This document shows positions 23,279-38,717 of a stretch of 64,000 bases of DNA, piece after piece. How positions within the stretch are numbered: position 1 is the first letter of the stretch; the number at the start of each line of letters is the position of its first letter. The notes beneath the pieces are model-generated. The model saw nothing but the letters and a program-made list of their open reading frames with translations, made no database searches and had not been told where the DNA came from. Made by a program: the position numbers and the translations under genes. Origin of the DNA: Anaerolineae bacterium (GTDB taxonomy: Bacteria > Chloroflexota > Anaerolineae > B4-G1 > DUEL01); the NCBI GenBank assembly GCA_025060135.1, contig JANXCY010000009.1, positions 1-64,000 of the forward strand, written 5' to 3'.

Positions 23279-24391
23279 TCAAAGCCCTAGCGCTTCCCGC
23301 AGCCGCTCCAGGAAAGTGGGCTGGCGTACCTCCACGACCGATTCGCCGCCCAGAGTCTCCGCCAGTTTCTGGAACAGTTCCCGCTGCTCGCGGGTCAGTC
23401 GGGTCGGCACCTCCACCCGCGTCAGGATCAACAGGTCGCCCCGGCCATCCCGCCGCAGATGGGGCACACCCCGGCCGCGCAGACGGAAGACGGTACCGGT
23501 CTGGGTGCCAGCGGGAATCTCTATCTCTTCCTCTCCCTCCAGCGTGGGAACGGTCACCCGTGCGCCCAGCGCGGCCTGGGCCACGTTGATACCCAGTTCC
23601 ACCAGCAAATCGTCGCCCTGGCGACGGAAATACGGATGGGGTTCTACCTCCAAGACAATGTAGAGATTCCCTGGCGGGCCGCCCCGTTCTCCTGGCTCCC
23701 CCTCGCCAGCCAGCCGGACCTGGGTGCCCGTATCCACGCCAGCGGGGATGTTAACCGTCAGTTTCCGGGTCATATGCACCCGACCCTGACCGCCGCAGCG
23801 GGCACAAGGGGTGGCCACGACCTCTCCGGCTCCTCCGCAGACCGGACAGGTGGTTACGTTGACGAAGGAACCAAAAATGGTGCGCTGAACCTGCCGTACC
23901 TGACCGGAGCCATTACAGGTGGCACACCGGACCGGCGTAGTCCCTGGGGCCGCGCCGCTCCCCCGGCATTCCGGGCAGAGTTCCAGGCGGGTAATCTCAA
24001 TCTCCTTTTTGCACCCAAAGACGGCCTCCTCAAACCGCAGCCGCAGGTCGTAGCGCAGGTCGGCGCCCCGACGAGGCCCCCGCCGACGGCCCGGTCGGAA
24101 GCCGAAGTCCACGCCGAAGACCTCTTCAAAAATCTCAAACGGGTCACGGAAGCCGAAGTCAAAGCCGACCCCCGAGGGTCCAGCGTAGCCATAGCGGTCA
24201 TAAGCGGCCCGTTTCTCAGGATCGGAGAGAACCTGATAGGCCTCGTTGATTTCTTTGAAACGAGCCTCCGCATCCGGCTCCGTAGAAACGTCCGGATGGT
24301 ACTTGCGGGCCAGTTGCCGGTAGGCCCGCTTGATTTCGTCCGGTGTGGCGTTCCGGCTGACACCCAGAACTTCGTAATAGTCCCGTTTCAT
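23279..24391 (-). CDS. dnaJ: Chaperone DnaJ
   Basis: J-domain KRDYYEVLGVSRNATPDEIKRAYRQLARKYHPD; four CxxCxGxG-type repeats. Confidence 0.97.
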   Translation of the reverse strand: MKRDYYEVLGVSRNATPDEIKRAYRQLARKYHPDVSTEPDAEARFKEINEAYQVLSDPEKRAAYDRYGYAGPSGVGFDFGFRDPFEIFEEVFGVDFGFRPGRRRGPRRGADLRYDLRLRFEEAVFGCKKEIEITRLELCPECRGSGAAPGTTPVRCATCNGSGQVRQVQRTIFGSFVNVTTCPVCGGAGEVVATPCARCGGQGRVHMTRKLTVNIPAGVDTGTQVRLAGEGEPGERGGPPGNLYIVLEVEPHPYFRRQGDDLLVELGINVAQAALGARVTVPTLEGEEEIEIPAGTQTGTVFRLRGRGVPHLRRDGRGDLLILTRVEVPTRLTREQRELFQKLAETLGGESVVEVRQPTFLERLREALGL

Positions 24392-24397
24392 CGCGCA

Positions 24398-26212
24398 TCA
24401 CCCAGACTTCGAGGAACAGCGAGCGCTGCCGGCGGTTTCCATTGCCCGGTAGAGTTCGGCCATCGCCTGCCGGACCCGGGGGATGTCTCCCGTCCCCAGA
24501 GCCTCTTCCAGGGACTGGATCTGTTCGTCTATCTGGCGAGAGGCCGCTGGGTCCAGCAGTTCCCCCATTTCCTGCAACAGTTTTCGGGCCGAATAGATGA
24601 GACCATCGGCGGCGTTGCGGGTTTCCGCCCACTCCTTTTTTCGCCGGTCCTCTTCCCGATGGGCCTCCGCGTCCCGGATCATCCGCTCCACCTCTTCGTC
24701 GCTCAACCCGCTGGAGGGGATCACCTGCATGCTCTGCTCCCGTCCGGTGGCTTTATCCCGCGCGGAGACGTGAAGGATGCCGTCAGCGTTGATGTCAAAA
24801 GTAACCTCAATCTGGGGGACACCGCGCGGGGCCGGGGGGATGCCGTCCAGGATGAAATAGGCCAGACTTTTGTTGTCGGCGGCCATCGGGCGCTCCCCTT
24901 GGACGACGTGAATCTGCACTTGGGTCTGGTTGTCGGTAGCGGTGGAGAAAATCTGGGTCCGTCGAACGGGAATGGTGGTATTGCGCTCAATGACCGGCGT
25001 CGCCACACCCCCCAGGGTCTCAATGCTCAGCGTGAGAGGCGTAACGTCCAGCAGGAGGACGTCTTTCACCTCCCCAACCAGAATGCCAGCCTGAATAGCC
25101 GCGCCCAGGGCTACCACCTCATCTGGGTGGACGCCCCGATGGGGCTCCCGTCCGAAGAATTCGGCGACGATGCGTTGGACCGCAGGCATCCGGGTCTGCC
25201 CACCCACCAGAATCACCTGCCCAATGTCGGAGGGCTTCAGGCGCGCGTCCGCCAGCGCCTGACGGCACGGCTCCAGGGTACGCAGAATCAGGTCTTCCGT
25301 CAACTGCTCCAGTTTCGCCCGGGTCAGGTGCATCTGGAGGTGTTTGGGGCCGGAAGCGTCAGCGGCAATAAAGGGGAGATTGATCTCCGTCTCCAGCACC
25401 GACGAGAGTTCGATCTTCGCCTTCTCCGCCGCCTCCTTCAGCCGCTGGAGCGCCTGCCGGTCCTGGCGCAGGTCTATCCCGTGCTCCCGGGCAAACTCAT
25501 CGGCGATGTAGTCTATGATGCGGCGGTCAAAGTCATCGCCGCCCAGGAAGGTATCGCCGCTGGTGGCCCGGACCTCAAAGACCCCATCGCCCACGTCCAG
25601 GATGGAAATATCAAATGTCCCGCCGCCCAAGTCGTAGACAGCGATGAGTTCGTCTTTCTGTTCACCCAGCCCATAGGCCAGCGCCGAAGCCGTCGGTTCG
25701 TTGAGGATGCGCAGGACCTCCAGTCCGGCGATTCTCCCGGCATCCCGCGTGGCCTGGCGCTGGCTGTCGTTGAAGTAGGCAGGGACGGTGATGACGGCCT
25801 GAGTGACCGGCTCACCCAGAAAGGCCTCCGCGTCCGCCTTGATTTTAGCCAGAATCATGGCCGAAATCTCCGGCGGAGCGTACTCCTGTCCATTCATCCA
25901 GACCCGGACGTCGCCATTAGGGGCGGGAGTTACCCGATACGGGACGACCTGAAGGGCCCGCTGGACCTCAGGGTCGTCGTACTTTCGCCCCATAAAGCGC
26001 TTGATGGAGAAGATGGTGTTTTCCGGATTGATGATGGCCTGCCGCTTGGCGACCTGCCCCACCAGCCGCTCTCCCGTTTTGGGGTTGACGGCGACAACGG
26101 AAGGGAACAGCCGCTCCCCCTCCGCACTGGGGATAATGACTGGCTCGCCGCCGGTCATCGCTGCGCAGACAGAGTTGGTGGTGCCCAGGTCAATGCCGAT
26201 GATCTTGCTCAT
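24398..26212 (-). CDS. dnaK: Chaperone DnaK
   Basis: [42 protein letters not shown]. Confidence 0.98.
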
Positions 26213-26826
26213 GCCGACTCCTGCGGTGAGGATTCCGGGGGCCGGTTCGCTCGGGCCACCCGCACCAGTGCAGGACGGATGACCCGGTCGCCCAGCATGT
26301 ACCCCCGCTGCACTTCGCCAATAATCTGTCCCTCCTGATAGCCAGGGGCATCCTCATAGGTTACCGCTTCGTGGTAGAGGGGGTCAAAGAACTTCCCCGT
26401 CGTCTCGATCGGCTTCAACCCCTCTGCTTCCAGGATGAGTTCCAGTTTTCGCTTGATGAGAAAGACTCCTTCCACCCAGGTGAGGCTCTGCAGGCCTGGG
26501 GGAAGGGTCTGGATGGCCCGCTCCAGGTCATCCAGAACGGGCAGGATACGGGCCATCAGGACGGCATTGTTCAGGCGGACCCGTTCCAGAAATTCCGCTT
26601 CCTGTCGCTTGCGGTAGTTGGCGAATTCCGCCTGGGTGCGCTGCCAGCCGTCCAGGTACTCGCTCGCCTGGGCCCTGGCCGCTTCCAGTTCCTGGCGCAG
26701 TCGCTCCAGTTCGGCTTCCAGTGTCTCCGGCCTCGGCTCTTCGGTAACCGCTGCGGTCTCTCCGGCGGTCATCCCGGTTTGAGGGGTTCCCTCTGGGAAT
26801 ACCGACTCTTGCCGTTCGGCCGCCAT
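26209..26826 (-). CDS. grpE: Nucleotide exchange factor GrpE
   Basis: [16 protein letters not shown]...[12 protein letters not shown]; internal Met start at 26826. Confidence 0.92.
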
Positions 26827-26836
26827 GCTGACCTCC

Positions 26837-27928
26837 TTACTCCGTAGAGCGCATTTCGTATTCCGGGTTTTGAGGCAGTGGGGATTCGGTACGGACAACG
26901 AAGACGTCGTAGACCAGTTCGGAGAGGACGCCAGCGACGAAGCGGACCGCGGAGATGGCCCGGCCGTAGCCCATGCGGGTGGGGCCCAGGACGCCCAGCG
27001 CGCCCGTTGCCAGGCCGGCCACGCCGTAGCGGCTGAGGATGAGGCTACAGGCCCGCAGTTCGTCAAAGCGGCCCTCGCCCCCGATCATCACTCGCACGCT
27101 GCCCACGGTGGAGCCCAGCGCGTGGGCCAGGATCGCCTCCAGGAAACTGCGCTCCTCAATGACCCGCAGGATCCCCTGGGCATGGGGGCCCTCCTGGAAT
27201 TCCGGTTCCTGGAGGAGTTCGCTCAGCCCGTCGTGGTAAATTTCCTCGGGGGCAACCGCGCTGGCCCGCCGCATCATTCCCACCACCAGCCGGGCCACAT
27301 CCGCCTCCAAGAGCGGCAGGCTCCCGATGCGGGGCTCAATCTCGTCGGCGGTGAGGCCCGCGCAGAGTTGATTCAGCCGGTCCGCCGCCTCGCTGAGCAC
27401 GGCTTGCGGCAGCGGTTCGGGCAGGGTGAGCATCTGCTGCCGGACCATGCCGCCCTGGAGAACCAAGACCAGCAGGACCAGGCGGCCCTGAGTGGAGATG
27501 AGTTGCATATGCCGGTAGCGGGGCTGGGCGGCCTGCGGCGCGGTCACCAGGGCCGCGCCCCGGGCGGTGCGCGCCAGCACCGACGCTGCCAGCGGCAGCC
27601 ATTCTTCCACATCATCCCGGACCTGCTGGAACTGATGAGCAATCGTACGGCGCTCCGCCAGCGGCAATTCCGTCTCCCGCAGCAGCCGCTCCACAAAGTA
27701 GCGGTACCCCTCGTGGGTCGGCTGGCGTCCAGCGGAGGTGTGGGGATGGGTCAGGTACCCCAACTCCTCCAGGCGCGCCATCTCGTTGCGCACCGTCGCC
27801 GGGCTCACATCCAACCCGTATTTCTCCACCAGCGTCCGGGAGGCGACGGGCGCCCCCGTCTGGACGAATTCCCGCACCACCAGTTCCAGAATCATCTGCT
27901 GTCTCGGGGTCAAATCCTCCGCCACCAT
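26837..27928 (-). CDS. hrcA: Heat-inducible transcription repressor HrcA
   Basis: LTPRQQMILELVVREFVQTGAPVASRTLVEKYGLDVSPATVRNEMARLEELGYL. Confidence 0.96.
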   Translation of the reverse strand: MVAEDLTPRQQMILELVVREFVQTGAPVASRTLVEKYGLDVSPATVRNEMARLEELGYLTHPHTSAGRQPTHEGYRYFVERLLRETELPLAERRTIAHQFQQVRDDVEEWLPLAASVLARTARGAALVTAPQAAQPRYRHMQLISTQGRLVLLVLVLQGGMVRQQMLTLPEPLPQAVLSEAADRLNQLCAGLTADEIEPRIGSLPLLEADVARLVVGMMRRASAVAPEEIYHDGLSELLQEPEFQEGPHAQGILRVIEERSFLEAILAHALGSTVGSVRVMIGGEGRFDELRACSLILSRYGVAGLATGALGVLGPTRMGYGRAISAVRFVAGVLSELVYDVFVVRTESPLPQNPEYEMRSTE

Positions 27929-28300
27929 CCAACCACCTCTGTGGAGTCCTATAAAGTCATACCGGTTTAAAGTCTCGGAAAATCGTGCCGGATAATGCCG
28001 CTTTCGGGAGCGTGCTCACCCCTCCTCACCCCCGGCCCTCTCTCCTCCCCAAAACGGAGAGGGGAGAGGGAAAACGAGAGAGTTTTGCGGCGGCTGGAGG
28101 CTATCGCCCAACCCCATTTCTCTTCCTCCCTCTCCCCCGAGCGAAGCGAGGAGGGAGAGGAGGAGTCAAGGGAAATGAGGGAAGCACGAATTTTCAGGAC
28201 TTTTGCCCGGCACGAGTTGATGAGACTCAGCCACCTCAGTGCTCTTTAACCGGATTTCCGCAGTCGGCCCTGCAGTGCAGGCACAGGCTGCCCGACCTCA

Positions 28301-28366
28301 GCTACAGGCTCACAGCCTACGCTACAAGGCTCACAGCCTGTGCTACAGGCTCACAGCCTACGCTAC
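28301..28366. repeat. Three tandem about 20-bp units GCTACAGGCTCACAGCCTAC
   Basis: Units at 28301-28320, 28321-28341, 28342-28361 plus partial. Confidence 0.9.
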
Positions 28367-28402
28367 GGATCACCCGGAAAGATAGGGGCGCGACTTCGGT
28401 CT

Positions 28403-31090
28403 TTAAGGGATGCGCATTCTCCTCAACAACACCGAATTCCACTCCGAAAGCACGGCCTCTCCTCCCGCAATATCCGGTGGATACCGCTCCCAGGTATAGG
28501 GGTCCCACCATCCTACCTCCAGCCAATATTCCCCGGCAGGAGCATCCGGCGCAATCTGGAAGGTATACGTGTCTTCGTAGACTTTGCCCACTTCCCACCA
28601 GTGGACAGGCAACTGTTGATTCGCCTCTCCCCAAAGGAGGTTGCCAGTGGCCGGGTTGACAGTGGTCCCCAGCAAATGGACGAAACCGTTCACCGGACGG
28701 TCGGCCCGGGTCAACAGTCGCCAGTACAGGGTTACTGTGATAGCGTCCCCTGGCCACGCGTGCTCCGAGGAAACAGTATATCCGATCAGATGAATAATCT
28801 CCCCAAAGCGAATGTCTACGGGAATCTCGCCCAGGTTCTGGGTATCCTTCGCATAAGGAAGGGGTTCCCTGACCCGGACTTCCCACAGCGAGAGCAAACT
28901 ACCAGCGGGGAGGGCTCGCCCGTGCTCGTAGACGGGCAGGGTGGCCCTGCCCGTCGGATCGTAGACGGCGACGCCGATGGTATATACCCCCGGCGGAGCA
29001 TCCGCTGCCAGAGGCATCCGCCGGTGATCCGCCCAGAATTCCCCCGGTTTCAGGTTCAACGGGAGGTCAGTCTGGGCAATTTTGTCGTCGCCCTGCAGGA
29101 CCTGCACCGTTGCTGAGCGAGGGCCGTCCAGCGGCCTCAGCGCCCGCCAGTAGAGGGTCAGTTCCAGTTCCTCTCCCGGCGCCAGGACCCCCCGTTCCAA
29201 CCGATAGCCGACCAGCGCTACCTCGCGCCCCCAGCGGTAATCCAGCACCGGCCCGGAATCGGGGACGACGACTCTCGGGCCCGGGAAGTGGAACGTATCC
29301 CCCAGTTGCCAGCCTCCCTTATTATACACCGGTAGCCGTTCCGTGAAAGTCGTCAGGCCCACCGCCAGAGTCCCGATGGTGGTCCTCGGGACAGTCTCCC
29401 GCACGGGCAGGAGGTAGCGGTCGCAGAAGGCAACCCCTGGGGACCAGAGGGAGGTGGGGAAGGTGCCCAGGCCGGGATGGGTGATCTTCTGCCCCGCCGT
29501 CAGTCCTTCCACCGTCTGCAGGGAGAGGGAGACGAAGTAGTCGGCCCCTACCGGGCCATCGGCTCGCCAGCAGAGGATGACCGGGAGGTTGTGGCCCGGG
29601 CGAATTTCCTCTGCTTCCACTCGGTAGCCCAGAAGCGTGATGCTCTCACCGAAGCGAATGTCGGCCCGATGGGAAACCCGCTCCTCCACTTCCGTCATCG
29701 TCAGCGGCGCGGGGCGGGCATAGGCGGGCCGGATGACCCCGAAGGGCATCCAGAGGGCCAGCGCCAGTAGCAGCGCGCCCAGGGCCAGGAAGAGCCACCG
29801 GCGCGCCCGCGCGGGGGCCAGTTGCACCCAGCCCAGGGCCAGCAGGGTGGCATGGGCACCGATCGCCGGATAGAGTAGCCGCCCCTGGGAGCCGCCGGTG
29901 GTCAGGGTCCAGCGCACCAGCCCCACCGCGACGATCAGCGCCCAGAGGAGGAGGTACCCCACCCGGCCCAGCGTGCCCCAGTCCTTCCGGCGCGCCGCGC
30001 GCGCTCCAAAAAGCACCAGACCCGCCGCGCCAAGAGCCACCAGCAGGCCATAGACCCAATAGACCCACCCCGGCGCGGCCAGGTTGAACCAGCCAAAGAC
30101 GGCCCAGTAGGACATCCAGACCAGCCGGGCCTCGGTCTGGAAGAAGTCCATCAGGCCAAACCCGGGCTCCCGGCGGCCCACCAGCGGGAGCATGGCCGCC
30201 AGGCCCGTAGGGTCGCCGTAGAGGTGCCAGTTGCGCCCGTACCACCACCCGCAGACCGCCAGCGCAATCCCGAAGGTGAGGAGGAAACCACGAAGACGCG
30301 AAGACACAAAGAAAAAATTTTTTGTACTTCGGGTCTTCGTGTCTTGGTGGTAAAAAACCAGCGCCAGGGCGGCGAAGGGCCAGAGGAGGAGGCCGCTCAG
30401 TTTGGTCAGCGCGGCCGCGCCCAGGAGCAGGCCGGCCTCACTCCACCCCCTACGGAAGGAAGTGCCACCAAAGGCGGCAGGGGAAGGGTGAGGCGCCAGC
30501 ACCACCAATGTCCAGGTGGCGATGCAGGCGGCCAGCGCGTCGTTGTTCACCAGGCTGGAGGTGAAGAGAAAGCCCGGGGTGAGGGCAACCGTCATCGCCG
30601 CCCCCGCCGCCACCCATTCCTTCTGCGGGAACAGCCTCCGCGCCAGCACATATGTCCCCCAGACCGTCCCGGCGCCGAAGAGGATGGAAAGCAGGCGGGC
30701 CAGGCGAATCGCCAGCGCCGCCCCCCGGTACGGGAATCGCTCCGCATCGGTGTGGATGTAGTGGTTCTGGTTGTCCCGGTGCCCGATGGGCAAGAGAGCG
30801 GGGAACGGATTCTCGCGCCGGTAGAGATCCGCCAGGTCGCCCTGGGGCACCCACCGGGTCAGGGCTGCCGCCAGCAGGTAGAAAAGGGGCGGCTGGCTGG
30901 CCTCCTGCCGGGCCAGGTGCGGATACTGGTCTGGCGGCTGGCGGGGCAGGGTCCAATGCTCCGCGACGTACCGGACGTAGGCGTAGTGCCAGGACTCATC
31001 GTTCCCCTCAAAGAGGGGGACGGTGAGGCTGTAGAGCAACGCCAGAACCGTGAACAGTCCAGCGTAAAAGGCAGGATGGGAGCGCTTCAT
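28403..31090 (-). CDS. GT39-like multi-pass membrane protein with repeated C-terminal beta-type modules
   Basis: NDESWHYAYVRYVAEH..., multiple TM helices; start MKRSHPAFYAG. Confidence 0.75.
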   Translation of the reverse strand: MKRSHPAFYAGLFTVLALLYSLTVPLFEGNDESWHYAYVRYVAEHWTLPRQPPDQYPHLARQEASQPPLFYLLAAALTRWVPQGDLADLYRRENPFPALLPIGHRDNQNHYIHTDAERFPYRGAALAIRLARLLSILFGAGTVWGTYVLARRLFPQKEWVAAGAAMTVALTPGFLFTSSLVNNDALAACIATWTLVVLAPHPSPAAFGGTSFRRGWSEAGLLLGAAALTKLSGLLLWPFAALALVFYHQDTKTRSTKNFFFVSSRLRGFLLTFGIALAVCGWWYGRNWHLYGDPTGLAAMLPLVGRREPGFGLMDFFQTEARLVWMSYWAVFGWFNLAAPGWVYWVYGLLVALGAAGLVLFGARAARRKDWGTLGRVGYLLLWALIVAVGLVRWTLTTGGSQGRLLYPAIGAHATLLALGWVQLAPARARRWLFLALGALLLALALWMPFGVIRPAYARPAPLTMTEVEERVSHRADIRFGESITLLGYRVEAEEIRPGHNLPVILCWRADGPVGADYFVSLSLQTVEGLTAGQKITHPGLGTFPTSLWSPGVAFCDRYLLPVRETVPRTTIGTLAVGLTTFTERLPVYNKGGWQLGDTFHFPGPRVVVPDSGPVLDYRWGREVALVGYRLERGVLAPGEELELTLYWRALRPLDGPRSATVQVLQGDDKIAQTDLPLNLKPGEFWADHRRMPLAADAPPGVYTIGVAVYDPTGRATLPVYEHGRALPAGSLLSLWEVRVREPLPYAKDTQNLGEIPVDIRFGEIIHLIGYTVSSEHAWPGDAITVTLYWRLLTRADRPVNGFVHLLGTTVNPATGNLLWGEANQQLPVHWWEVGKVYEDTYTFQIAPDAPAGEYWLEVGWWDPYTWERYPPDIAGGEAVLSEWNSVLLRRMRIP
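30287..30351. repeat. Imperfect palindromic element inside CDS
   Basis: ACCACGAAGACGCGAAGAC ... GTCTTCGTGTCTTGGTGGT, 19-bp arms with 2 mismatches. Confidence 0.8.
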
Positions 31091-33396
31091 GGAATCACGA
31101 TGGTACTGACAAAAAGGGAATTCCATTCGGAAAGAGCAACGCCTTCCCCGGCCACCACACGCGGCGGGTAGCGCTGCTGAGTCTCCGGGTCCCACCAGCC
31201 CACTTCCAGCCGGTACTCCCCGGGCGGAGCGTCGGGCGCCACCCGGAAGATGTACGTATCCCGATAGAGGCCGCCCGGCCGCCACCAGTTGATGCCCATC
31301 TGCTTATCTTCCTGTCCCCAGAGGGGGGTGCCGGTGGCCGGGTTCACCGTTGGCCCGATCAGGTGGACAAAACTGTTGGCCCCGCGATCCACCGGGCGGG
31401 AAATTTCCCACCAGAAGGTAACGGAGACCTCCTGGCCCGGCTCGGCGCGGTGGGTGGAGACGGCGTAGCCGCAGAGGTGCAGCGTCTCCCCGAACCAGAC
31501 GTCCACCTGGGCCTGCGCGCCGTGGATAGATTCGCATGTGGAGTGGTGGCGCAGGAAGGGGGTGTGCGGGTCCAGCCAGAAGGTCTTGAGCGCGGCCAGC
31601 CCGACCAGCGATCCGGCAACCCACCAGCGGGGCTTCAGGTAACCTGTAGCATAAGATTCATCTAAGGCTCCGGCGTAAGATAAATCTTGGGCTACAGGGC
31701 GCCGCCAAAGGACAGCCAGGGCCAGAAGGACAACCACTGTTATTCCACTCACCCCGTCTCCCACCCGCTGGGCCATCGTGCCCTCGTATTGCAGGAGAAC
31801 GGTGTGCCGTCCGGGGGGGATGTCCATTAAAATATAGCCACTTCCTTCGGCGGGCTGCAGGGGTCGGCGTTCACCGTCCAGGTACCCCACCCAGCCGGGG
31901 AAATAGAGGGCGTGGAACGCGCCCTGGAAGGCTATCGGCGTCTCCAGTTCCGCCTCCAGATATCCTGTCCGCCGCTCCCAGCGGAGCACCTGTCCTCCCT
32001 CTGGGAGGTTGGAGACGGGCGACCTGGCGATGCGGTCGGCCTCGTCCGGGGTGAAGGGGACGGTCCGCCAGCGGGGGAGGAGTTCCCGGAAGTAACTCAG
32101 GTCCGGAAAGCCCGAGCGCAGGGTGAACTCCCGCACGTCGGCCAGAGTAGGGTCGCGCGGGACCTCGGCGTGGTGGGTAAGGAGGGATGGATATAGGGAA
32201 GGGAGCGCGATGCCCACACCGAGGACAGCCGTCAGCGCGGCGAGGAGGCCAACCCAGCGGCGCGGGGCAACGGCCAGCAAAAGCCCGGTCCCCAGAGCCA
32301 CCACCAGGCCTATGGAAGCCAGGAGCCGCCAGCGGAAATTCAGATACTGCATAATGCCCAGCGGGGTGATGGTGGCCCAGACGGGAGTGGCGGCAGCGGT
32401 CTGCATCCAGAGGGCGACGGCTCCCCAGAGGGCCAGTCCTCCAGCCAGGACCGCGTCGGCCCCTCGTCCACGCCGGGCCAGCAGCGGCATCGCCGCCAGC
32501 GTCAGGGGGATCAGAAACGCCGGGAGCGGCCCCAGAGTCTGCCCGGTGTCGTTGTTGACCAGGCCGGCGTCAAAGACCAGGGGCCAGGCAAAGAACTCTG
32601 AAAGGCGCATCACCCCTGTCGTCGGCGAAGCCCACGACCGGTCGGTCGCGTTCGCCAGTTGTACCGCCCACCGTTCGGCCATAAAGGGGAGCAGGAAGAA
32701 GGCCGCCAGCAGCAGCCCGCCGACCAGGGCCAGCACGGCCATCCAGAGGCCGGTCCGGCCCGCGCGGAGAGTCAGGAAGAGCCACCAGAGGGCCAGGACC
32801 GGCAGGGCCAAGAGCGCGCCCGCGTTGTGGGTGAGGATGAGGGCGGCCCAGGCAACCGAGGCCAGAGCCAGCCGAAGCCCGGAAGGGCTCTCGGCCAGAG
32901 CCAGCAGTCCCCAGAGGACCCAGGGATAGAGGGCGATAGCCATTCCCTGAGGCGACCCGCGCTCAAAGAGTTCCCGCAGGAGGTAGGGCGAATAGGTGTA
33001 GAGAGCGGCGCTGGCCAGCGCGACGTCGGCCCGGCGGAAGAGGACCAGTCCCAGGCCGAAGGCCCCCAGCGACGCGGCCATAAAGGCCAGCGCGACCACC
33101 AGCCGCCAGGTGAGGGCGAATGGAACACCAGCGACATGGAAGACCGTCATCAGGAAATAGATGAGGGGGGAGTAAAACGTGAAGAGGGGCCCGCCCAGGC
33201 CCCCGTTGATGCCGGGGACCCAGCGCGGGTAGAGCCAACCATCCGCCTGCGCGGCGGCGAAGACGACCGCACGGTAGACGTGGAAAAGCGCCGCGTCCAC
33301 CGCGTGCTCCTCAATGGGATTGCTCAGTGCGGGCAACGCGGCAAAGAGCGGCAATAGAAGGGCCAGAGTCCAAGGGAAGAGTCGCGTCTTTCCCAT
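31087..33396 (-). CDS. Multi-pass membrane protein (YfhO/6-PTP-synthase-related membrane type)
   Basis: Multiple TM helices; GINGGLGGPLFTFYSPLIYFL; C-terminal module shared with neighbouring gene. Confidence 0.7.
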   Translation of the reverse strand: MGKTRLFPWTLALLLPLFAALPALSNPIEEHAVDAALFHVYRAVVFAAAQADGWLYPRWVPGINGGLGGPLFTFYSPLIYFLMTVFHVAGVPFALTWRLVVALAFMAASLGAFGLGLVLFRRADVALASAALYTYSPYLLRELFERGSPQGMAIALYPWVLWGLLALAESPSGLRLALASVAWAALILTHNAGALLALPVLALWWLFLTLRAGRTGLWMAVLALVGGLLLAAFFLLPFMAERWAVQLANATDRSWASPTTGVMRLSEFFAWPLVFDAGLVNNDTGQTLGPLPAFLIPLTLAAMPLLARRGRGADAVLAGGLALWGAVALWMQTAAATPVWATITPLGIMQYLNFRWRLLASIGLVVALGTGLLLAVAPRRWVGLLAALTAVLGVGIALPSLYPSLLTHHAEVPRDPTLADVREFTLRSGFPDLSYFRELLPRWRTVPFTPDEADRIARSPVSNLPEGGQVLRWERRTGYLEAELETPIAFQGAFHALYFPGWVGYLDGERRPLQPAEGSGYILMDIPPGRHTVLLQYEGTMAQRVGDGVSGITVVVLLALAVLWRRPVAQDLSYAGALDESYATGYLKPRWWVAGSLVGLAALKTFWLDPHTPFLRHHSTCESIHGAQAQVDVWFGETLHLCGYAVSTHRAEPGQEVSVTFWWEISRPVDRGANSFVHLIGPTVNPATGTPLWGQEDKQMGINWWRPGGLYRDTYIFRVAPDAPPGEYRLEVGWWDPETQQRYPPRVVAGEGVALSEWNSLFVSTIVIP
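31644..31697. repeat. Imperfect inverted repeat inside CDS (CTGTAGCATAAGATTCATCT...AGATAAATCTTGGGCTACAG)
   Basis: Arms about 21 bp with a few mismatches. Confidence 0.7.
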
Positions 33397-33562
33397 ACTC
33401 AGGATGTTAAAATTGCGGGCGCTCTCGTGGTATCCAGATGCCGGTCCGGATCAAATCCATTCAGGAACTCCACCGCTTCTTTGACCGAATGGAAGGTAAA
33501 AACGACCCATAGCCTCCCCTAAGGCACTACCGGGATGGGCGATTTCCCTTTCCTCCATCCCC

Positions 33563-34096
33563 CTACCTCCGCAAAGTCAGAATCACCTCTTGCAGGGGAA
33601 CATTATGCCGTTGAGGATTCGCCCGCCATTTTTCGCCCCGCCGACGCAAAGGCCGAATCGTATAATCTTGAAAACCAATTCCCAAAGCCAACTCGCCCAG
33701 ATAGCGATCCGTCGGAATGTGAATGCCATAAGGCGCCCTGTCGCCCAGCACCAGGATAAAAGGTGCTCCTGGCCGGAGTACCTGATACACCTGCTGTAAC
33801 ACTTCAAACATATCGTTGAAATAGCCCGTTACCATCAGATCATAACTCTTCTTTCCGCCCTTTTGGTGCCGGATTTCAGAAAGTTGGGCAATCTTTGCCT
33901 GTAATTCCGTGTGAACGGATGGTGAAGCGGCTTGCAGACCATCGCTGAGCCGCTCGGTCCGAAAAAAGTACCCAATCGGGCAGTATCGGATGCTTGAAGG
34001 GGCTCCGCCGGCCCCCAAAAAGCCATTTGCTTGCGGGTCAGAGATGCGGGAAACGCGTCCGATGCGCCCATAACGGCTCCTATTTAGCACTCTCAC
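33563..34096 (-). pseudogene. C-terminal fragment of a DNA methyltransferase-like protein
   Basis: EVLQQVYQVLRPGAPFILVLGDRAPYGIHIPTDRYLGELALGIGF...; no catalytic NPPY/DPPY motif, unrelated N-terminus. Confidence 0.5.
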
Positions 34097-34110
34097 AGCG
34101 AGAGTGCTAA
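34084..34110. promoter_or_regulatory. CIRCE element (HrcA operator)
   Basis: TTAGCACTC-N9-GAGTGCTAA, perfect. Confidence 0.95.
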
Positions 34111-34123
34111 AATTCGTTATTTC

Positions 34124-34152
34124 ATGCTACCACGCGTGGGGGAATCTGTCAA
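34124..34152 (-). promoter_or_regulatory. Minus-strand promoter TTGACA-N17-TAGCAT adjoining CIRCE
   Basis: -35 at 34152-34147, -10 at 34129-34124, CIRCE immediately downstream, SD-like AGGAG then ATG at 34071. Confidence 0.65.
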
Positions 34153-34236
34153 GGAAGTCGCTCCCTGGCTGGCTGGTAATCTGGAGGATTTGCGGTATAA
34201 TAACCTTGACAGGAGTTAGCGGAATGGGAGGCTAAC

Positions 34237-36174
<1,938 letters not shown>

Positions 36175-36269
36175 ATGTGCCTTGCCACCCGTCCGGGCGC
36201 TCCGACTTTGATGATGAAGGCTGAGGAGTTTTGCCCGAAGGTACGCCTTTGCGAGACCTTCGCGCTGCT

Positions 36270-38717
36270 CACACTCACCCCCACCACCAACACCACCAGC
36301 CTACCACCCTCCCCCTGCTTCCTCGCCCCCCACGCCGCCACTAACCCCACCGGCGCCAACAGCCACAGCGCCGGGTCCGGCACCGGCACGTACCGGTTCA
36401 GCGTGCGCGGATCGTAGGGATTGAAGGTACGGTTGGGCGTCAGAAACCGCCCCGTTGCCGGATCGTAGCACCCGTGAGCATACAACAACCCGCTCACCCG
36501 GTCAAGTTGCGCCCCCAAGAAGCCAAAGGCACTCTCATAGGCTCCCTGCTCCTCCAGGATGCCACCGAAGGGCCGGTAGGTGCGGGCCAGGATGACGGTG
36601 CTGCTCCCATCGGCCATCTGCCGCAGGCTCCCTTCGCCGTCCCGCAACGGGTAGGCCCAGGCAGGGGTGTATTCGGCCAGAAGGGCGCGTCCGTGGAGGT
36701 AGAGGGTAGGCGTGAGGCCGGCAGTGGAGGCCAGCAGTTCCCCCTGGAAAACAGCGTAGGTAACGGTGAGCGGCACGCCCTGAGCCCAGGTGGTCAGCCC
36801 CAGAGCCGCTGGTCATCGGCGTTGTAGGCGGCCTCGGCCAGCGCGACGTAGGCGCCGCCGGTGTAGAGTTCCACGCGCACCAGGTGGCCGGCAGCATCGT
36901 AGGTGTAGCGGGTTTCGCCTTCGGCGGGGGCGGTGCCGCCGGGGGTCTGGCGAATGAGGTTGCCCCGGCGGTCAAAGGTGTAGTGCCAGGTGATGCCGTC
37001 GCGGGAGGAGTGGGCAGTGAGGAGTTGATTGGCAGGGTTGTAGGTGTAGCGGGTAACGACGGTAGCGCCGACGGTTTCGGTCATCACGGTGACGTTGCCC
37101 ACAGCATCATAGGCGTACTCGAACCGCTCGCCGGTGGAGTATTGGGCGCCGGTGAGCCGGTGCAGCGGGTCGTAGAGCCTGTCCTGAGCGAAGCGAAGGA
37201 TGTAGGTGATGACGCGGGTCACCACCTCCTCTGCACCCCCGCTCCCGCGCGCCTCCGCTCGCCGGCTCCCCTGCACCTCCGCACCCGCGCTTCCCTCCAC
37301 CGCTGCCTCCGCCCCGCCGCTCAGCAGCCCCGCTCCCGCGCAGACGACGGCCACCACCAGCAACACCGCCCCCACCGGCGCGGCCCCGCGCAGCCGCCGC
37401 CTGCTCCGCCCCAGCGCCAGCAAGGCCAGCGGCGCCGGCAGCAGGAGCAGTGGATCCGGCTTCAGTAGCGGCAACCCGGGCCCACGCCCGCCGGCCAGAG
37501 GCCACAGCCCCCGCGCCTGCGCGGTGTTGGACGGGCCGCTCTCGCCCGCCGCATTCTGCGCGGTGACGACGTAATAGAGCCCCGCCGCCCCGTCCAACTC
37601 GTATTCATACCGCGCCAGTAGGGGCGCGGTAACCGCTACCGCGCCTCCCCCGTAGGTGCCGCAATCCCCAGCGGGCGGTACAGCGCATCGTAGTCATACC
37701 TCGTCACCCCCACCGCGTCCGTCACCACCGTCCGGTGGCCCAGCGCATCGTAGGCGATCTCCACGGTGAACCCGGGCACCTCCCCCACGGGCGGGTATTC
37801 TATCCGCATCGGCCGCCCCAATGGGTCGTAGGCTGTGGTAACGGTGATCGGGCCGGATGCGTCCGGATAGACCTCGCCCACGCGCCGGCCCAGCGCGTCG
37901 TAGAGGTAGCGAGTAACGTTCCCCAGCGCGTCGGTAACGACCCCCCGCTGGCCGAATTCGTCGTAACCGTAGAGCGTGGTGTTCCCCAGCGGGTCGGTTG
38001 TAGAGATGACATGGCCGTACTCTTCATAGGCGTAGCGGGTCGTGTGCCCCAGCGCGTCGGTCTGGGCCAACAGGTTGTTGCGGGCATCGTAGATGGAGCG
38101 GGTCGTGCGCCCCTGCGCATCGGTCGTCCTCAGCAGGTTCCCCCGGCTCTCGTATTCCATCCGGGTAACGCTCTCCAGCGTGTCGGTGATGGCCAAGAGG
38201 TACCCACAGCAACGGTCTCACTCCATCCACGTCGTCCGCCCCAGCGCTTCGGTTACCTGTTTGGGCCGGAAGTCCCAGTCATACGTCCGGACTTGCTCGT
38301 GCAGACCCCCACCCCCACCGCCGCCACGCCCAACAATTCATCCTGGCCGTTAAAGGCCCCATCGGTGGAATCCGTCGCGACCCCCGAAAAAGTCGCTTCC
38401 GGCTGGACCCCTCCCACCCGGATATAGGCCGGTCGGACCAGGGTATTTGAAATCCCGCCACCCCAGACCGTCAGGGAGACCGTGTAGAGCCCGACCACCC
38501 AGTAAGTGTGCACCGGCGACGCCACCGTGGCCGTCGTCCCATCCCCGAACGACCAGAGCCGGGCCTCAATGGTCCCGGTGGAGCGGTCGGTGAATTGGAT
38601 GGTCAACGAAGCCGTGCCGGCCCGAGGCATGGCCGTAAAGTCGGCCCGGGGCACAGGTTGGCGCGACCCGGCCGGGGCCTCTACCCGCTCCAGTACCCTC
38701 TCCGGCTCCAGTGCCAT
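36270..38717 (-). pseudogene. Fragmented Rhs/YD-repeat and PKD-domain surface protein
   Basis: Four ORF pieces in three frames: PKD-like (38717-38253), YD repeats DALGHTTRYAYEEYGH.. (38196-37636), YD/Fn3-like (37597-36794), Rhs core YDPATGRFLTPNRTFNPYDPRTLNRYVPVPDP (36776-). Confidence 0.8.

Follow-up and report, generated by a model that had tools for sequence, protein, structure and literature searches.

A perfect CIRCE 6.2 kb upstream of hrcA as the probable displaced promoter-operator of a hrcA-grpE-dnaK-dnaJ operon in a Thermoflexus-like genome

Introduction

In class I heat-shock operons of the gene order hrcA-grpE-dnaK-dnaJ, a housekeeping-type promoter and the CIRCE operator stand before hrcA, the first gene. 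A class I HrcA regulon with CIRCE occurs in Bacillus subtilis, and the relief of HrcA repression by heat is the established mechanism of the HrcA family. The closest counterparts of the locus described here are CIRCE-hrcA operons of the same order (G007, G009-G013, G017, G029, G033 and others), which have a near-identical extended -10 promoter and CIRCE, the latter being located 15-221 bp before hrcA. We analysed a stretch of 64,000 nucleotides (the window) from a genome that most likely belongs to a Thermoflexus species (Chloroflexota). Operator, promoter type, gene order and the position of hrcA as first gene are all the same as in the class I operon, but here CIRCE and hrcA are about 6.2 kb apart, and two membrane-protein genes and a methyltransferase (MTase) pseudogene lie in between. 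No report of this arrangement was found in open-licence papers on CIRCE/HrcA in Chloroflexota.

Results

The regulatory region is located on the minus strand and consists of the following elements:

34124-34152, minus strand: promoter with -35 TTGACA (34152-34147), a 17-bp spacer and extended -10 TGG-TAGCAT (34129-34124)
34084-34110, minus strand: perfect CIRCE (HrcA operator), just 3' of the predicted transcription start
34077-34081, minus strand: AGGAG, Shine-Dalgarno-like, preceding ATG 34071

The CIRCE reads TTAGCACTC-N9-GAGTGCTAA, both arms being perfect. The first-pass annotation of this DNA had described TTGACA-N17-TAGCAT, a perfect CIRCE, AGGAG, ATG 34071 and an open reading frame from there to 33835 (78 aa), and all these elements were confirmed, together with a TGn before the -10 hexamer. 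The hexamers are a predicted sigmaA-type (housekeeping-type) promoter with an extended -10, and by its motif and its position relative to this promoter the site at 34084-34110 is an operator at the transcription start, as in CIRCE/HrcA heat-shock operons. When the window was searched for CIRCE with up to 3 mismatches, this was the single match, and none appeared in 100 dinucleotide shuffles; the result for the window was the same with up to 5 mismatches. An Rfam scan of 32000-36500 gave no match.

The same annotation had regarded the promoter as an orphan whose chaperone gene was displaced or deleted. However, a complete chaperone cluster stands on the same strand further downstream:

26837-27928, minus strand: hrcA, the CIRCE-binding repressor and single hrcA of the genome (PF01628, E 5e-45)
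26209-26826, minus strand: grpE, after hrcA
24398-26212, minus strand: dnaK, overlapping grpE by ATGA
23279-24391, minus strand: dnaJ, after dnaK

The cluster is intact and lies 6155 bp 3' of the CIRCE; the gaps between hrcA and grpE and between dnaK and dnaJ are a few bases each, and a search of the window allowing up to 5 mismatches detected no further CIRCE near the cluster. A search of the whole genome (2.29 Mb, 144 contigs, 95% complete), which the annotation had proposed, gave two CIRCEs, the site in the window and one 5' of groES-groEL on contig C60, where groESL is intact. The promoter is thus no orphan: a displaced chaperone operon agrees with the hrcA cluster 6.2 kb away, whereas a deleted one does not agree with the intact hrcA cluster and groESL. 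As a side observation, the dnaK genes beside grpE in G004 (L036 875-2662) and G003 (L077 259-2031) are 73-74% identical to that of the window, at 94-95% identity of hrcA; this may reflect a replacement of dnaK in the two species, and another grpE-like gene follows downstream in G004.

To see how CIRCE and hrcA are placed in relatives, we compared 35 order-level genomes from outside the genus in which a single contig carries both hrcA and CIRCE, and measured the distance to the first aligned hrcA codon; the CIRCE positions of four of them (G018, G028, G034, G035) were taken from a longer listing of CIRCE sites. The chaperone genes follow the operator directly in all 35 (distance 15-221 bp, median 42 bp). 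Within the genus Thermoflexus, this distance is 4671 bp in G002, 5139 bp in G004 and 6155 bp in the genome studied here (G000). The promoter-CIRCE module (34083-34156) is 92-93% identical to that before GT1, the first of the two membrane-protein genes, in G001 and G002. The same -35/-10/CIRCE architecture is found before hrcA in nine other relatives, showing that the block is conserved across the order. Synteny, a check suggested in the first-pass annotation, therefore assigns the site to the hrcA operon, both by the 35 genomes outside the genus and by the genus members. The CIRCE arms are perfect in four species. Between G004 and the window, 8 of the 9 spacer bases and none of the 18 arm bases are changed, as expected under selection on the operator. 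In G006, no CIRCE (up to 5 mismatches) was present in the 4.2 kb examined upstream of hrcA, and GT1 is on a different contig; the CIRCE-hrcA link may thus have been lost in at least one species. By eye, PIN-domain-like (VapC-type) and glycosyltransferase-like genes were seen upstream of GT2-hrcA in this genome (L078 4570-6185).

The DNA between the CIRCE and hrcA contains, besides the MTase remnant, two genes and an enlarged gap:

31087-33396, minus strand: GT1, large membrane protein, PF10131 (PTPS_related)
28403-31090, minus strand: GT2, membrane protein with a C-terminal module common to GT1; its start overlaps the GT1 stop (ATGA)
27929-28402, minus strand: GT2-hrcA gap of 474 bp, enlarged by dispersed repeats

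GT1 is probably a GT-C-type glycosyltransferase; GT2 had no match in Pfam. Relatives of GT1 outside the genus are numerous and only about 30% identical; the two genes thus seem to belong to a large family, and to have been brought in either when the genus arose or during its later divergence. GT1 stands directly behind the CIRCE in G001, G002 and G004, and GT2 is located 5' of hrcA in G000, G001, G002, G004, G005 and G006, while the contig of G003 stops at hrcA. The GT2-hrcA gap is roughly 70-300 bp in relatives and about 70-80 bp in G002, G004 and G005. No sigma70-like promoter was detected in this gap in the five species scanned (G001 lay outside the scan), and the gap of the window contains no CIRCE. 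On the minus strand from 34160 to 26200, no promoter-like site other than the CIRCE promoter was found, and terminator-like sites were at chance level. The dispersed repeats at 27985-28405 have partial copies on several other contigs.

Directly behind the CIRCE lies the MTase remnant, whose identity was obtained by a six-frame search of relatives:

33964-34071, minus strand: N-terminal fragment of the MTase pseudogene, 36 codons from ATG 34071 to LGTF
33835-34071, minus strand: 78-aa open frame, the MTase N-terminus followed by out-of-frame sequence past the deletion junction
33563-33949, minus strand: C-terminal fragment of the MTase pseudogene, about 128 codons

Over 33949-33572, the C-terminal fragment shares 65% identity with amino acids 366-491 of an intact MTase of Thermoflexus sp. 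RSWP15 (G001; E 5e-55), a frame of 493 residues that matches PF01555. The annotation had correctly placed the methyltransferase similarity in a frame (33563-34096) other than that of ATG 34071; its statement that the latter frame resembles nothing does not hold, since the first 36 codons look like an MTase N-terminus and the rest is out of frame. When this N-terminal fragment was compared with the N-terminus of the RSWP15 protein up to the LGTF motif of the family, none of 5000 shuffles reached the score, and 6 of 5000 did so against the whole MTase. When the 1413 six-frame segments of the window were scored with a profile built from 22 N-termini of the family, the fragment ranked first, yet with an E value of 0.56; we therefore base its identity on pairwise score, rank and colinearity taken together. 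Both ends are alike in sequence to the N6_N4_Mtase of RSWP15 (L103/L080) and are colinear with it, but in the window they are in different frames and about 290 middle codons are missing, among them the DPFxGxGTT and TSPPY motifs that PF01555 proteins carry in one frame. Pfam and NCBIfam gave no match for the 78-aa and 177-aa frames, tblastn of plasmids with the C-terminal fragment found only distant MTases, and the 3' flank of the RSWP15 gene has no homology in the window. We conclude that the remnant is a predicted N6/N4 DNA methyltransferase pseudogene, decayed by internal deletion. The leader open reading frame of G004 starts with MGALDTVPTS, which resembles MGASDAFPAS of the window, and then enters the same pre-GT1 sequence. 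These short matches suggest that an MTase gene probably stood right behind the CIRCE in the common ancestor of the window species and G004 and decayed unequally. At 33833-33837 (minus strand, TGATG), the stop of the 78-aa frame overlaps an ATG in the C-terminal frame, an arrangement that might couple translation of the two parts of the pseudogene.

On the other side of the CIRCE, we mapped the junctions by DNA comparison of the window with genus members:

34237-36174, plus strand: ftsH, divergent neighbour, GTG start (the annotation had given ATG)
34164-34236, plus strand: 5' flank of ftsH, its own conserved block ending with TATAAT (34196-34201)
34157-34163: junction of the CIRCE module and the ftsH flank, in this genome only

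The segment 34164-34499, ftsH with its own 5' flank, is present in G001, G002, G004 and G005 with no CIRCE nearby. The TATAAT-ending block is conserved in G000, G002 and G005, and in G001 it was moved upstream by an insertion. The segment 34042-34156 comprises the CIRCE module and leader, and is matched by G004 over its full length. Below 33449 the GT1 homology with relatives resumes, and the piece between 33449 and 34042 is found at this place in no other genus member. The upstream neighbour of the CIRCE varies among relatives, and it is ftsH only in this genome. Just downstream of ftsH, at 36535-38196 (minus strand), fragments of an RHS/YD-repeat protein are found in several frames and look like a decayed RHS gene.

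Discussion

We consider it likely that the CIRCE promoter is the ancestral promoter-operator of hrcA-grpE-dnaK-dnaJ, displaced by insertions, kept under selection and driving a long operon down to dnaJ. It is assigned to hrcA because the genome has only two CIRCEs, the hrcA cluster lies downstream in the same direction, and in relatives the CIRCE is next to hrcA. Its origin as the hrcA-operon promoter is well supported. Promoter ancestry, gene order, the lack of a second CIRCE at hrcA and the integrity of the arms after displacement are established by genome comparison, at the level of sequence; HrcA binding and transcription reaching hrcA are inferred. The ATGA overlaps of GT1/GT2 and grpE/dnaK, the short gaps, the lack of an intervening promoter and the chance level of terminators support the long operon.

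The following course of events would account for the locus. In the genus, GT1 and GT2 would have separated hrcA from its CIRCE. In the line leading to G004 and the present genome, an MTase gene would also have entered directly behind the CIRCE, to be degraded later through an internal deletion, and ftsH would have reached the other side by a rearrangement. In unstressed cells, HrcA on the CIRCE would most likely block the start of one transcript of about 11 kb, containing the MTase wreck, GT1, GT2, hrcA, grpE, dnaK and dnaJ in this order. Heat would inactivate HrcA and lead to derepression, so that HrcA autoregulation would now act at a distance. The proposal in the annotation that CIRCE was recruited for a new gene is correct insofar as GT1 and GT2, and for a time the MTase, came to stand first behind it, while the promoter itself traces back to the hrcA operon.

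Alternatively, the operon may have been split, the CIRCE promoter controlling only GT1, GT2 and the MTase wreck, and hrcA-grpE-dnaK-dnaJ being free of direct HrcA control on an unrecognised promoter near hrcA. Insertions of 4.6-6 kb would favour such a split. The 474-bp repeat-filled gap could contain a promoter that does not follow the sigma70 consensus, Rho could well terminate transcription in the long stretches that are untranslated or out of frame, and G006, lacking CIRCE in the 4.2 kb upstream of hrcA, may be such a case. Nevertheless, we regard a split as unlikely, as the gap has no promoter-like site in five species and is just about 70-80 bp long in G002, G004 and G005, terminators are not in excess, and the CIRCE arms are still perfect.

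An assembly error could have created the adjacency of ftsH and CIRCE, which is seen in one draft genome of 144 contigs and depends on 34157-34163 joining blocks that are apart in relatives. This is rather improbable, since the ftsH flank and the CIRCE module both extend to the junction without loss and the upstream neighbour of the CIRCE varies anyway; the conclusion on CIRCE and hrcA would be untouched, because hrcA lies on the other side. That the CIRCE regulates the divergent ftsH, an option raised in the annotation, is very improbable: the CIRCE is 126 bp upstream of ftsH and is overlapped by a plus-strand match TTAGCA-N18-TAAAAT, but ftsH of four other genus members stands elsewhere without CIRCE, the TATAAT-ending 5' block is common to G001, G002 and G005 with homology ending before the CIRCE module, and the CIRCE lies upstream of the TATAAT element rather than over its start. 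Finally, a left-over regulatory region of deleted groESL or another chaperone gene, as might be suspected because groESL and hrcA operons typically have this layout, is hardly credible, being contradicted by the intact groESL with its own CIRCE on C60 and by the synteny with hrcA.

Returning to the displaced hrcA promoter, we regard the element itself as ordinary and its location as unusual. It probably still works as the switch of the hrcA-dnaK operon, whose 5' end has been extended. Tentatively, insertion may have extended the HrcA regulon in Thermoflexus: glycosyltransferase-like genes and transiently an MTase would have been captured at the 5' end, placing envelope glycosylation under heat control, with the DnaK system driven from 6 kb away. 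Insertions, in at least two rounds, have opened a CIRCE-hrcA layout that is normally fixed, and the operator remained perfect. The locus is thus a natural experiment on whether a stress operon under repressor control still works when several kilobases separate it from its promoter. A cultured species, Thermoflexus hugenholtzii (PMC8129789), offers experimental access if it has the same arrangement. Prediction of CIRCE regulons by the next gene only would miss dnaK here, and label GT1 or the MTase wreck as a heat-shock gene.

A further observation concerns family f3 (G020, G024, G030, G032, G041, G042, G045, G047 and others), where, on the contig without hrcA, a perfect CIRCE is accompanied at a distance of about 62-64 bp by an imperfect one, CAAGCACTC...GAGTGCTAA. 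This pair is a tandem operator, probably at groESL.
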